From a virus, in IMG/VR virus record IMGVR_UViG_3300047554_000285, positions 1-33,807 of that record: a stretch of 33,807 nt of DNA. One strand, given 5' to 3'. The notes below the pieces were generated by a model. That model was not told the DNA's origin, ran no database searches, and was given only the letters and a program-made list of their open reading frames with translations. The stretch's first letter is position 1, and each line of letters opens with the position of its first letter. The position numbers and the translations under genes were made by a program. This document shows, one piece after another, positions 24,334 to 28,101 of the stretch.

Positions 24334-24674
24334 TTCCCCTCCCTAAATTTTATTATTTGCTCTTTTGCTTCTTCAGCGCCTTTACATACCAGCACGGTAT
24401 CGCCAATGCTGCGCAAGTAGTTGTGCCAATCTTTTTGATGTGGGCTGACCGTACCGCCTTTGATGCGCTTCATTTCAATCCACAGTTTCCACTCTGGTGC
24501 GTACAGGTCTGGAACGCCTGGACTAACTCCCTCGACCTTTAACCGTGCGGCCACCGTAATGGATCGCTTCTCGCCATTAGCAATGGCAAAAATTCTTACC
24601 TCTTTATACGTCTGGCGAAACCATTTAACGACTTCTCGTTGCTCTTCATGTTCGGTGGGGATTCGTTCAGTCAT
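24330..24674 (-). CDS. VRR-NUC domain nuclease
   Basis: A 114-residue protein with the virus-type replication-repair nuclease pattern: E near the N-terminus (HEEQREVVKWFRQ), then GVSPGVPDLYAPEWKLWIEM followed by K as the PD...ExK core, and SPHQKDWHNYLRSIGDTVLV as the conserved Q and following strand. Such domains cut branched or flap DNA and accompany phage helicases, as here. ATG at 24674 is chosen (AAGGAAATGG upstream, 8-bp overlap with the helicase stop). The position immediately after the SF2 helicase suggests they act together on recombination intermediates. Confidence 0.85.
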   Translation of the reverse strand: MTERIPTEHEEQREVVKWFRQTYKEVRIFAIANGEKRSITVAARLKVEGVSPGVPDLYAPEWKLWIEMKRIKGGTVSPHQKDWHNYLRSIGDTVLVCKGAEEAKEQIIKFREGK

Positions 24675-26268
24675 TCCATTTCCTTGATAGGACGCGATAA
24701 AACTTGCCTTCTTTTTTATACGCAATCGTGGCCGGTGGTTTGCCGTGGTTCATGTACGTGGCAATTTGGTCTAACTTCGTCACACCAACAGCAAACAATT
24801 CACGGCTACCCACACCGGACGAATTAGCCATCTTGGCTAACTCTCTAACCGCTCTGTCGCCAGCATAGCCATCGTGGCGAAGTGGCAGGTACTCAGTAAT
24901 TGATGGGTCGGACAAATTCTTTGAATAATAACTGACGGCCAACATTTCTTTACCACTAGCATTGCTGATGTGCTTGCGCCAGTTCCATCCGGTAATAATC
25001 ATGTCTTTGGCATCCATGCCCATAATATCGTCGTGACGTAGCGTCAATGGTTTCGACACGGACGGCGGGAATTCATGGCCACACGATGGACATATTTTCA
25101 TGGATATGGCGCAGAGTTCATGGCACTCGGTGCAAACCTTGACCGGCATTTCACCGTTTCCAGACCCTGCTTTATTGGGCGGCTGCACGTTGGTAATCGG
25201 GCCATGCGTTTCAACCACTCCCGCAAAATCCAACACCAAGCAATGGTCGATGTGATCTTTAATGCGCATACCGCGACCAGCCATTTGCACGTACAGGCTG
25301 GCGCTCATAGTTGGGCGCAGCATGGCGATTAGATCAATATTAGGAGCATCAAAACCAGTAGTAAGTACGTTAGCATTTGTTAGTGCCCTTATTTTTCCAG
25401 ATTTAAATTCATGGATGATTCGCTCTCGGTCTGTCTTTGATGTCTCGCCAGTGATGCAAGCCGACTTGATGCCTTGGTCGCGCAGCTCAATCGATACGTT
25501 TTTTGCGTGATTGATACCTGCACAAAAGAATAGCCACGACTTTCTATCGCCAGCCAAGCGAATGACTTCGGCCACAACGCTCTCATTATTCTTTCTTGTA
25601 TCGACTGCTTTCTGTAGTTCGGCCTCAATGAACTCGCCGCCACGTTTTTTAACGTCACTAGTATCTAGCTTGGCCGTGGTGGTCTTTGATCGTAGCGTGG
25701 ATAAATAACCTTTATAAATTAACTCCTCGATGCTGACCGGCTCAATCAAATCATCAAATATGGCTGGTTTGTCGGTAATAAGGCCATGGCCCATTCTGTA
25801 AGGGCTAGCTGTTAAACCAATAATGCGCAACTCTGGATTGATTACCTTCAATTGAGTCAATAAATCACGATAGCCACCCTCGTTTTTGTGACTAACCAGA
25901 TGGCATTCATCAATAATGACCAGATCAATATGGCCAAGATAGTCAGCCTTAGTGCGCACCGATTGAATGCCAGCGAAGGTTATCGGCTCACCTAAGTCGC
26001 GCTTACCAATACCAGCTGAATAAATGCCAAGCGGAGCGCCTGGCCAATGTTGGCGCATCTTTTCGGCGTTTTGCTCGATCAATTCTTTAACGTGCGTAAG
26101 CATCAGGATTTTTGTCTCTGGCCATTTCTGCACGGCATCCTTGCATAACGCAGCAACAATGTGGCTCTTGCCCGAACCGGTTGGCAGCACTAAACACGGA
26201 TTGCCTTTGTTTTTTTCGAGCCAATCGTATAGCTGATTGATGGTTCGCTGTTGGTAGTCACGGAGCAT
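24667..26268 (-). CDS. SF2 DEAD/DEAH-type helicase with zinc knuckle
   Basis: A 533-residue helicase. Motif I PTGSGKS (residues 29-35), motif II DECH (120-123), motif III TAS (153-155), motif V TTGFDAPNID (303-312) and motif VI QMAGRGMR (328-335) are all present. A four-cysteine knuckle follows: C379, C382, C393, C396 in VCTECHEL...CPSCGHEF. The C-terminal 130 residues form an extra domain. It resembles phage homologues of the RecG/UvsW-like SF2 helicases involved in branch migration and replication restart. The ATG at 26268 has no clear ribosome binding site and follows a 175-bp leader with a conserved element. Confidence 0.92.
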   Translation of the reverse strand: MLRDYQQRTINQLYDWLEKNKGNPCLVLPTGSGKSHIVAALCKDAVQKWPETKILMLTHVKELIEQNAEKMRQHWPGAPLGIYSAGIGKRDLGEPITFAGIQSVRTKADYLGHIDLVIIDECHLVSHKNEGGYRDLLTQLKVINPELRIIGLTASPYRMGHGLITDKPAIFDDLIEPVSIEELIYKGYLSTLRSKTTTAKLDTSDVKKRGGEFIEAELQKAVDTRKNNESVVAEVIRLAGDRKSWLFFCAGINHAKNVSIELRDQGIKSACITGETSKTDRERIIHEFKSGKIRALTNANVLTTGFDAPNIDLIAMLRPTMSASLYVQMAGRGMRIKDHIDHCLVLDFAGVVETHGPITNVQPPNKAGSGNGEMPVKVCTECHELCAISMKICPSCGHEFPPSVSKPLTLRHDDIMGMDAKDMIITGWNWRKHISNASGKEMLAVSYYSKNLSDPSITEYLPLRHDGYAGDRAVRELAKMANSSGVGSRELFAVGVTKLDQIATYMNHGKPPATIAYKKEGKFYRVLSRKWND

Positions 26269-26367
26269 AAATTTTTATCAATAATGGCGAGGTACTTGCC
26301 GCCCTAGCTATTTCTCGTCGCCGGTGGTGCAATCCGGCATTCACTAGTTTGGCTTTCCCTCAAAATG
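26269..26367 (-). other. Helicase leader with two hairpins and no ribosome site
   Basis: Non-coding stretch between box B of the conserved element and the helicase ATG. On the minus strand GCCGG-ATTGCACCA-CCGGC and GGCG...CGCC can form hairpins. The 15 bases before the ATG (A/T-rich) hold no Shine-Dalgarno match. A 10-codon frame MPDCTTGDEK lies within but has no ribosome site. Box C of the element (26343-26353) is included. Unusual in an operon where nearly every gene is coupled. Confidence 0.5.
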
Positions 26368-26443
26368 GGTGGGGTACTCATGGTGCTGGACAAAACAAAG
26401 TATCTCCGCTCCACTATGCCTAGTTCCACTTTCCCCCATAAAC
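26368..26443 (-). repeat. Conserved three-box intergenic element, copy 1 (boxes A and B)
   Basis: On the minus strand the gap after the Cas4/RecB-like gene starts with box A, GTTTATGGGGGAAA (26430-26443), directly after the stop. Box B, GAGTACCCCACC, lies at 26368-26379, and box C, GCCAAACTAGT, follows at 26343-26353. The same boxes in the same order occur in the other large gap of the operon (27495-27624). TGGGG of box A can pair with CCCCA of box B. A 31-codon frame starting in box A (MGESG...) is open but lacks a ribosome site, and box B is read in a different frame from copy 2, so an RNA or DNA element is more likely than a peptide. Confidence 0.6.
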
Positions 26444-27472
26444 TTAACCGACCAACCTCGCATTAAACTCACGACGAAACTCTGTCGAAAATTCGTCAGG
26501 GTTGGCGCAGACTGCTGGATTGGCCAGTATCTCCTTTGATCCAAACACATTGACATCAGGCTCACCGTTAATAACATCTTTGTTATTAATGACGTAAATG
26601 GCTTGCCATTCGTTCTCGCTTTCCTTGCGCTGATACGGCACTAGATCAGGATGCAGTACGTGCGAATCGCAGCCTTCACGCTGCCACTCCACTGGTATCT
26701 CGTTGGCATCATGACGCTCACACCGCCACGTTGAATTCTCTAAGGCGGTGGAATGCGCGCACGTTCTGCAATTAACGTGTTTGGTGATCTTGGACTCAAA
26801 ACAAAAGTCATGCGCAGCACACCATTTACATTGATACCACGTTGGATCGGCTGACAATGGCTCCGGCATCCGGTCAGACAAAGCAATACGCTTTCCTCGC
26901 GCAATCGCTTTCTCTGCCACCTCTTTATCAAACTTGACCCGCTCGGTGTAGATGCGGTCATCATCCTTGCAAACAGCCACGTACAGCGCACGATCAATCT
27001 TGGTTCCTGCCATGTAGGTTTGCATCTGGATGAAATGCTCTGGCTTGGATTCTTCGACACCCTTTTTTTCCACATCGTTAAACGACTTGGCGCTATGGGT
27101 TTTGAATTCGGCGACGTGTTCGGTCTTTGGTGCGCCTGGCACACCAGATTTGATTACGCCGTCCAAACTTCCCGATACGTGGGAGCCAAAGTCAACTCTG
27201 GATTGGTTGCCGGTCGTGCGCTGAATATCGATGCCAATCGCACGAAGGTCGCTAACGATCTGCGCCTCTTCTAGATTGCCGCGACGAAATACGCGCAAAA
27301 TTCGACCGTCAAAGGCTTGTTGTACTGCCCAACGAAACGACAGCCACAACCAACGGTCGCAAGGGTGACCCAAAGTCGATGCGCCAAGGTGTGGCCGTGG
27401 CGGCTCTTGGCGGCTTTCGTGGTGCTTGTCAATCAGGTTAGCAATGCTGTATTCTGGTTCTGGAATTTTCAT
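26444..27472 (-). CDS. Cas4/RecB-like PD-(D/E)xK exonuclease with Fe-S cysteines
   Basis: A 342-residue nuclease. The N-terminal GASTLGHPCDRWLWLSFRW carries the H and first cysteine. The catalytic core reads GSLDGVIKSG...HVAEFKTHSAKSF (D and E-x-K) followed by FIQMQTYMAG (Q..Y). Then CKWCAAHDFC gives CX2CX5C, so with the earlier cysteine four ligands for a 4Fe-4S cluster are present, as in Cas4 and AddB-type nucleases. A second cysteine group (CRTCAHST...CERHD...CDSH) forms a likely zinc site. It probably acts as a 5'-3' exonuclease feeding single-stranded DNA to the Sak4-like annealing system. ATG at 27472 has GAAGGAG upstream. Confidence 0.85.
   Translation of the reverse strand: MKIPEPEYSIANLIDKHHESRQEPPRPHLGASTLGHPCDRWLWLSFRWAVQQAFDGRILRVFRRGNLEEAQIVSDLRAIGIDIQRTTGNQSRVDFGSHVSGSLDGVIKSGVPGAPKTEHVAEFKTHSAKSFNDVEKKGVEESKPEHFIQMQTYMAGTKIDRALYVAVCKDDDRIYTERVKFDKEVAEKAIARGKRIALSDRMPEPLSADPTWYQCKWCAAHDFCFESKITKHVNCRTCAHSTALENSTWRCERHDANEIPVEWQREGCDSHVLHPDLVPYQRKESENEWQAIYVINNKDVINGEPDVNVFGSKEILANPAVCANPDEFSTEFRREFNARLVG
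27426..27455 (+). promoter_or_regulatory. Candidate antisense promoter
   Basis: On the plus strand TTGTCA (27426-27431, five of six consensus positions) is followed after 18 bp by TATTCT (27450-27455). An alternative reading gives TGTATT (27448-27453) preceded by TGC, an extended -10. A transcript would start near 27462 and run through the terminator at 27502-27529. The match is moderate and unproven. Confidence 0.35.
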
Positions 27473-27494
27473 GATTCCATTCTCCTTCGTGTGG

Positions 27495-27624
27495 ACTAGT
27501 TGGGCAGGGATCAAACCCTGCCCTTTTTTATTGGTGGGGTACTCGCTGCGTCTGGCGCAAAGCATCAACCGGCGAACCGATCTGTATCTTCACTTGTAAC
27601 CAGTAGCCGTTTTCCCCCATAAAC
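27495..27624 (-). repeat. Conserved three-box intergenic element, copy 2
   Basis: Box A, GTTTATGGGGGAAA, lies at 27611-27624, a few bases after the DUF669 gene stop. Box B, GAGTACCCCACC, lies at 27533-27544. Box C, GCCCAACTAGT, lies at 27495-27505 and overlaps the hairpin at 27502-27523. Between A and B (66 bases, versus 50 in copy 1) two hairpins are possible: AUCGG-UUCG-CCGGU and UGCG-CCAGA-CGCA. Two copies with identical outer boxes but different spacers argue for a functional element or a shared recombination boundary rather than chance. Confidence 0.6.
27502..27529 (+). terminator. Perfect plus-strand intrinsic terminator inside the leftward operon
   Basis: GGGCAGGG (27502-27509) and CCCTGCCC (27516-27523) form an 8-bp perfect stem with a 6-base loop, followed by six T residues on the plus strand. 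All flanking genes are on the minus strand, where the hairpin has no T tail after it (A residues precede it). It would therefore stop antisense transcription, either from readthrough or from a dedicated short RNA. Confidence 0.85.
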
Positions 27625-27627
27625 TCA

Positions 27628-28101
27628 TTACTTCTTCTGCCAAGGTGGCGCAGCTTTACCACTCGCTGCCGCTTTCGCCACCGGTGCGGGTGGTGTTGAG
27701 CCAGCAATAGCTTTGAAACCTTTGACTTCGTTCTGGTCGCCGTACTGATCGCTCGCTTTAATAGCAATCTTGATAGAAAGTTGGCCACCGATCAGCTCAT
27801 CTGTGTCTTGCACCTTAGCAATGCCAATGGCGCGCATGATTTCACCTAATTGCTGGCGTCCAATTCCCTCAGCTGTTGCGTTAGGGTTACGAATGTTCAG
27901 GTTACCAAAGACAATGCGCCCCTGATGCGTTGGCCCGATAATGTCGTAGCGGATCGCAATGTACTGACCAGTACCTGCTTTGGTATTCTTCAATTCAGCG
28001 CCAGTAATACTGGCCGTGTACCAACCGGCTGGCAGCGGTTCATACGATTTTTCTGATACCGGCATATCTTCAGCCGAAAATGTTTGGTCTAAAAAAGCCA
28101 T
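27628..28101 (-). CDS. DUF669 protein, putative ssDNA-binding role
   Basis: A 157-residue protein of the DUF669 type: YEPLPAGWYTASITGAELKN then TKAGTGQYIAIRYDIIGPTH form an OB-like beta domain, followed by GRQQLGEIMRAIGI. The C-terminus is proline and alanine rich and ends PPWQKK, lacking the acidic tip of cellular SSB proteins. Members commonly sit beside phage single-strand annealing or Sak-type genes, as here, so a role in binding single-stranded DNA is likely but not shown. The start shares one base with the preceding stop (TAATG). Confidence 0.78.
   Translation of the reverse strand: MAFLDQTFSAEDMPVSEKSYEPLPAGWYTASITGAELKNTKAGTGQYIAIRYDIIGPTHQGRIVFGNLNIRNPNATAEGIGRQQLGEIMRAIGIAKVQDTDELIGGQLSIKIAIKASDQYGDQNEVKGFKAIAGSTPPAPVAKAAASGKAAPPWQKK

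Follow-up and report, generated by a model that had tools for sequence, protein, structure and literature searches.

Hairpin elements at two junctions of a minus-strand gene cluster

The window analysed here is the whole of the virus record IMGVR_UViG_3300047554_000285 (33.8 kb; 33,807 nt, positions 1 to 33,807). On its minus strand, a gene for a DUF669, single-strand-DNA-binding-like protein (27628-28101(-); PF05037, phrog_2300, phrog_6015) is followed by a gene for a Cas4-domain, RecB-like exonuclease (26444-27472(-); phrog_1990, E 6e-101) and then by a DNA helicase gene (24667-26268(-); Pfam ResIII and Helicase_C, phrog_16), with the elements described below in the junctions on either side of the nuclease gene. 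The earlier note had read these junctions as two copies of a unit of three boxes, A, B and C. Box A, GTTTATGGGGGAAA, occurs exactly at 26430-26443(-) and 27611-27624(-), with a stop codon within a few bases of its start, and box B, GAGTACCCCACC, exactly at 26368-26379(-) and 27533-27544(-); neither has a further copy in the window, and the spacers are those given previously (50 and 66 nt between A and B, 14 and 27 nt between B and C). In predicted folds the TGGGG of box A pairs with the CCCCA of box B, as had been suggested, and the UUCG loop assigned to copy 2 is present. Boxes A and B pair with each other as the two strands of a single RNA hairpin. Box C was not confirmed as a third shared box: it matches twice in the window but belongs to a different part in each copy. 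The copy 1 match (GCCAAACTAGT, 26343-26353) forms the 5′ strand, on the inner side, of another element arranged in tandem (26288-26362); the copy 2 match makes up the foot of a hairpin distinct from the element, CCCTGCCCAACTAGT; and the family scan showed box C to be missing from the other elements found. The window thus holds three elements and not two copies of a three-box unit.

Element 1a (26370-26438(-)) was recognised from the box matches and predicted folds and scores 24.4 bits (E 3.5e-5) with R1, a covariance model trained on the core type of the family, whose E-values are rough. Its base helix, P1, pairs (T)GGGG at 26438-26434 with CCCC(A) at 26374-26370 and is followed inward by an internal loop of GAAA (26433-26430) opposite AGTA (26378-26375) and by a variable cap. 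Element 1b (26288-26362(-)), identified by a descriptor match and a predicted fold with z -2.0, is a second tandem copy with its own P1 (GAGG/CCTC), after which comes GCC (26286-26288). The tandem pair recurs in two other loci (L054 and L106), and R1 is weak on the 1b type, giving the L054 relative of 1b 16.8 bits (E 0.055). Element 2 (27535-27619(-); R1 31.7 bits, E 2.1e-7; predicted folds) is a core-type, or type I, element that forms a long capped hairpin with the UUCG loop; it is possibly decaying, given two G-to-A changes in its core (GAAAAC and CTAC instead of GAAAGC and ATGC). The trinucleotide ACC, resembling positions 73-75 of tRNA, lies directly 3′ of the base helix both in element 1a (26368-26370(-); ACC and helix-end statistics) and in element 2 (27533-27535(-); box B match and ACC statistics).

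The separate hairpin at the second junction, GGGCAGGG...CCCTGCCC, includes the copy 2 box C (27495-27527(-)), lies outside the element and is kept in close relatives that lack it. Over 27495-27534 it is terminator-like on the plus strand only, with a TTTTTT tail, and all nearby genes are on the minus strand. An intrinsic terminator on the coding strand was ruled out for elements 1a and 2, where the T run is absent; apart from a strong match on the plus strand, a terminator scan picked up no more than a weak one of 5 pairs, located at the 3′ foot of 1b. Folded as a single sequence, the first gap gave z -0.5; such folds carry little weight for these elements, and the argument for a structured RNA is built on covariation.

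Related elements in environmental viruses

A pattern scan with TATGGGGGAAA-N40-70-GTACCCCAC matched 67 viral contigs with 48 distinct sequences, a recurrence far beyond chance. Leaving two base pairs free in a second scan (TATGGNNGAAAGC...GAGTANNCCA) yielded 55 distinct elements, and a third scan, in which the core alone was fixed and all of P1 was free (GAAAGCGGATGC-N22-52-GCAGCGAGTA), matched at least 120 contigs. All scans pooled, the collection comprises 229 distinct elements from viral contigs, 157 of them of the core type; as the scans relied on exact cores, the diversity of the family is under-sampled. The source contigs are uncultured viruses, mostly aquatic, and element carriers number in the hundreds.

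Searching cultured phages by blastn with the elements and their neighbouring genes returned as carriers only assembled Manatee Spring viruses (MW202462, MW202520 and MW202879). In 84,980 bacterial and archaeal genomes the TATGGGGG variant matched once (L070), with the wrong core, and this match was judged to be due to chance. No Rfam 15 family reached its gathering threshold in the window, and permissive Rfam searches of the elements gave scores far below gathering throughout. The sole element-overlapping match with E < 1 was rpsL_pseudo (18 of 70 bits, E 0.74, plus strand); it sits on the junction hairpin and on the strand opposite to the elements. A literature search for the sequence or a comparable phage RNA found nothing relevant.

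Covariation defines a conserved RNA architecture

In the second scan, both unconstrained base pairs are formed in 51 of the 55 distinct elements, as GG/CC in 29, GC/GC in 14, CC/GG in three, AG/CT in two and of wobble types in three. When all of P1 was free, its pairs 1-4 held in 128, 127, 127 and 120 of 129 distinct core-type elements among the matches listed, the pair types being GC, CG, UA, AU and UG, and pairing fades beyond the helix. For 50 sequences the P1 covariation score was 0.300 as compared to 0.077 in shuffles, where none of 500 reached 0.300, and to at most 0.102 in slid alignments, with two-sided changes at all five P1 pairs. P4 covaries as well, pair 1 in 154 of 154 elements and pair 3 in 114 of 146 (60 expected). 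The idea of an RNA element is thus strongly supported by many copies between early genes and by compensatory changes at free positions, the evidence that the earlier note had called for.

P1 is a base helix of 4-6 bp whose sequence is locus-specific and whose pairing is kept. It encloses an invariant GAAA // R-AGUA internal loop (GAAAG...AGUA), and the A ahead of GTA is invariant in the elements listed even though the first scan left that position free. Inward of the loop, type I elements have GC/GC and then UGC/GCA, with a GGA bulge between the two; a 3′-side bulge of GU or GAC follows, and beyond it come the covarying P4 and the cap. The GCGGAUGC/GCAGC core of this main type is invariant by search design and turned up in hundreds of contigs. 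In the other types P1 and the loop are retained and the inner domains differ. The cap is hypervariable, with interior lengths from 8 to 52 nt or more, and short-cap forms close with the tetraloops C-GAAA-G, C-GCAA-G or C-GUAA-G. The plan common to the family is 5′-UUAY, P1, the GAAA // R-AGUA loop, P2, the core and P4 in type I, an exchangeable cap, P1′ and ACC-3′. Three loci (L385, L386 and L414) carry a variant, GAAAGTTTGACAAG...CTTGTCATTCCGGTA, with GGTA replacing AGTA and with position, P1 and ACC unchanged.

AGUA/GAA is the consensus of the sarcin-ricin or bulged-G (loop E) RNA module. The elements resemble it in having 5′-GAA(A) opposite (R)AGUA, with the A of AGUA invariant, and their two strands are flanked by Watson-Crick helices, the covarying P1 outside and a G-C/U pair inside. 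Sarcin-ricin is a module, not a family, and the match is one of primary sequence only. A leader peptide or conserved reading frame, an idea that the earlier note had considered less likely, is excluded by cap lengths that fall in all residues modulo 3, the caps ranging from more than 52 nt down to bare 8-nt GNRA loops. We consider it near-certain that the elements constitute a genuine, uncatalogued family of structured RNAs in phage early operons.

Position between genes, gain, loss and exchange of caps

The flanking genes are both in sense orientation for 129 of the 229 elements and both antisense for 6. Elements usually lie 3-10 nt past a stop codon on the coding strand, the start being at most 10 nt past the upstream stop in 109 of the 182 with a sense upstream gene, and many end 17-22 nt ahead of the next start, with the Shine-Dalgarno sequence of the next gene typically following. 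At least 35 of 135 upstream genes encode SSB-like tails, and others belong to RecT-like, Gp2.5-like, SSB-like or nuclease families. Downstream genes are diverse, which rules out a common downstream target gene; for the same reason, and because close relatives have the same two genes without the element, the control of the helicase and nuclease genes proposed previously finds no support as such. A genome (33-65 kb) usually has one element or one tandem cluster, with 1-2 copies per genome, and this low copy number and the sense-strand location rule out a multi-copy mobile repeat of the REP, IS200/605 or MITE type.

A conserved intergenic sequence, CCCAGCCGGAGGTGGCGC...AACACCGGCAGCGGGGGCTG, lies downstream of the junction in L001, L011, L013, L395, L439 and L445; it comes after many elements, is also found where elements are missing, and is possibly another structured RNA. 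An AT-rich subtype, GAAAGCACTTTATTTATATG...TTAACCGCGAGTA (L071, L078, L079, L084, L088, L097 and L103), follows a small protein ending in ..LLILSTL, possibly a membrane protein, and often precedes a gene starting with MQLVTLDFETYYDV that probably encodes DNA polymerase.

Among relatives of the nuclease gene, most of those at 91-99% identity share the junctions but have no element there; the upstream junction is occupied by an element in the window, L057 and L022/L128 only. In 15 locus pairs, including L228 and L320 as well as L229 and L277, the flanks match and the caps differ, and identical caps are also found in unrelated flanks. As L228 has a long capped hairpin where L320, with unchanged flanks, has a GNRA tetraloop, the content of the cap is dispensable. 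The alternative offered previously, a conserved boundary at which genes are exchanged, is partly right: between fixed flanks, elements come and go and exchange their caps, and the nuclease-helicase junction takes different genes in relatives. The elements are not merely a recombination linker, since P1 covariation, strand bias and RNA tetraloops show that the structure itself is selected. In relatives (L107-L157), the nuclease-helicase junction (equivalent to 26269-26443 in the window) is an insertion hot spot with varied genes (methylases, HNH-like and others) or a gapless TAATG overlap.

The base helix ends at an ACC trinucleotide

Of 225 elements, 169 have ACC directly after P1′ (background frequency, 0.9% per position), and the helix, whether of 4, 5 or 6 bp, stops exactly where the ACC begins. 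An RCC directly follows the helix in 118 of 155 type I elements, and 8 of 158 control hairpins have one at this place. Opposite the A of ACC, 86 of the 105 type I elements with ACC at offset 4-6 have C or U, in agreement with the pyrimidine preference of RNase P at position -1.

The context of this ending was explored at the junction downstream of one recT-like gene in 75 relatives, where counts come from sequence reading and checking, as an automatic helix finder misclassified many loci. At least eight other large folds at this junction (L392, L396, L402, L406, L410, L427, L437 and L444), with base helices of 8-10 bp and without the GAAA/AGUA loop, likewise end in helix and ACC. The same junction also has a GCTAGG...CCTAGC type, with GCC or GCT after it, and simple UUCG hairpins with no ACC after the helix. 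At least nine unrelated-looking large structured RNAs occur there when L409 and L377 are considered together with these eight, most of them with a long base helix and ACC, and none of the large RNAs at this junction matches Rfam at threshold.

One of these folds, L396, combines an acceptor-like helix with a canonical T-arm (GTGGG-TTCGATC-CCCAC) and is a sub-threshold match to tRNA-Sec (24.9 bits); it looks tRNA-like and has two T-arm hairpins. Across the collection T-arm motifs are rare, at 1 per 100 kb-strand, and the three found in junction segments, at two loci (L396 and L428), are suggestive only. The GAAA/AGUA elements contain none in 15.2 kb, ARAGORN found no tRNA in 17 recT-junction loci, and the Rfam tRNA model gave no match at the elements.

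Discussion

We tentatively propose, with somewhat less than even confidence, that the elements are intercistronic processing sites for host RNase P. In bacterial RNase P RNA a GGU pairs with positions 73-75 of the substrate, the acceptor/T stack of 12 bp serves as a ruler, and the phage C4 RNA, M3 RNA and T4 gene 32 (ssb) mRNA are cut by the enzyme as well (PMC11143913); a U or C at -1 is described as contributing to cleavage (PMC3874170). It is the fit of the UUAY-helix-ACC ends to these rules that leads us to commit to an RNase P site. The element would imitate a precursor tRNA through an acceptor-plus-T-stem-like stack and its RCC end, P1, the loop and P2 amounting by inference to about 10-12 stacked layers with the T-arm itself absent. 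Host RNase P RNA would then pair its GGU with A73-C74-C75 and cut just 5′ of P1, which in the window predicts cuts at the T26438/G26437 boundary in element 1a and at the T27619/G27618 boundary in element 2. Such a cut would leave two messages, an upstream one that often comes from an ssb or recT-like gene and a downstream one starting with a protective 5′ hairpin near its ribosome-binding site, possibly allowing unequal expression of genes within one operon, and the cap would serve as a replaceable stacking lid. Several observations count against recognition by RNase P: about a quarter of type I elements have no RCC, position 76 varies between U, A and C, and this inconsistency of A76 means that the full CCA is absent. 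The anticodon, D-arm and T-loop are all absent from the GAAA/AGUA elements, an AGUA internal loop within an acceptor stack is unusual, and recombination between elements could be the source of the conserved ends.

A broader and rather doubtful idea is that phage early operons have a dedicated docking position that accepts interchangeable structured RNA modules, be they GAAA/AGUA-core elements, tRNA-like RNAs with T-arms or other folds. All would end in an acceptor-like helix and ACC for cutting or binding by a tRNA-handling host enzyme, and the caps would diversify under their own selection.

An invariant loop and flanking ACC common to elements with different caps and inner domains, and in type I an invariant GCGGAUGC/GCAGC core (by search design) in hundreds of contigs, would also be expected of a binding site for a phage or host protein that reads the loop and the helix end and is indifferent to the cap, such as an autogenous or operon regulator or a processing factor distinct from RNase P. 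We regard this as unlikely, as neither a consistent downstream gene nor an obvious co-occurring RNA-binding gene was found and other RNAs at the same junction retain the ACC but not the loop. The location 3-10 nt past the stop and just ahead of the next Shine-Dalgarno sequence, and the simple UUCG hairpins of relatives at the same recT-like site, fit a passive insulator or mRNA stabiliser, in which a tight hairpin blocks reinitiation or 3′-to-5′ decay as REP or simple hairpins do. A passive hairpin needs no invariant loop, core or exact helix-end ACC, however, and the simple hairpins are without ACC, making this explanation distinctly unlikely in our judgement.

A recombination linker or mobile DNA cassette, with conserved short ends that let phages exchange the middle and an element that spreads between junctions, would account for the 15 flank-matched pairs with different caps, the many identical caps in different flanks, and the element-free sites in relatives whose nuclease is 91-99% identical. 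It is improbable in view of a P1 that varies by locus yet stays paired, which breaks the homology of the ends, as well as of the 1-2 copies per genome, the strand bias and the RNA tetraloops. Most improbable of all is a trans-acting decoy or small RNA freed by processing, acting either through a cap that an arms race has diversified or by sequestering a host enzyme or defence system as a tRNA-like sponge: hypervariable caps swapped at fixed flanks and roughly one element or tandem pair per genome speak for it, whereas the reduction of the cap to a GNRA tetraloop with unchanged flanks (L228 and L320) speaks against it.

The novelty lies in the RNA family itself; RNase P substrates, which the elements may resemble in their working, are already known. 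With the non-tRNA substrates (C4 antisense RNA of phages P1 and P7, M3 RNA, T4 gene 32 mRNA and 4.5S RNA) the elements share a helix end followed by RCC, a mostly pyrimidine -1 and a phage mRNA setting beside ssb-type genes (PMC11143913). They differ from these in the invariant GAAA/AGUA loop, the GCGGAUGC/GCAGC core, the exchangeable cap and the location between cistrons. An acceptor-like helix and ACC are shared with tRNA and tRNA-like structures, including tRNA-Sec, whereas the anticodon arm, D-arm, T-arm and CCA are not.

In T7-like phages, intercistronic RNase III sites are internal-loop hairpins between early genes, about one per junction. The elements are similar in form, position and number but have a strict sequence core and an ACC tail, and type I helices, being short and placed around bulges, would make a poor double-stranded RNA substrate. 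Integron attC sites and REP/BIME sequences are likewise folded, located after genes and swapped between genomes, but no attC or REP sequence signatures were seen in the elements, and no recombinase or RAYT partner was noticed.

The untranslated RNA of environmental phages is almost unmapped, and the elements add to it an uncatalogued RNA family that is backed by covariation and so far found only in phages. Because whole RNA modules are swapped between fixed flanks, modular evolution at the RNA level becomes directly testable here. If the tRNA-acceptor reading is true, many phages would divide their early messages by means of the host enzyme that trims the 5′ ends of tRNAs, and the elements would represent natural minimal RNase P substrates and provide a mechanism for unequal expression in compact operons.
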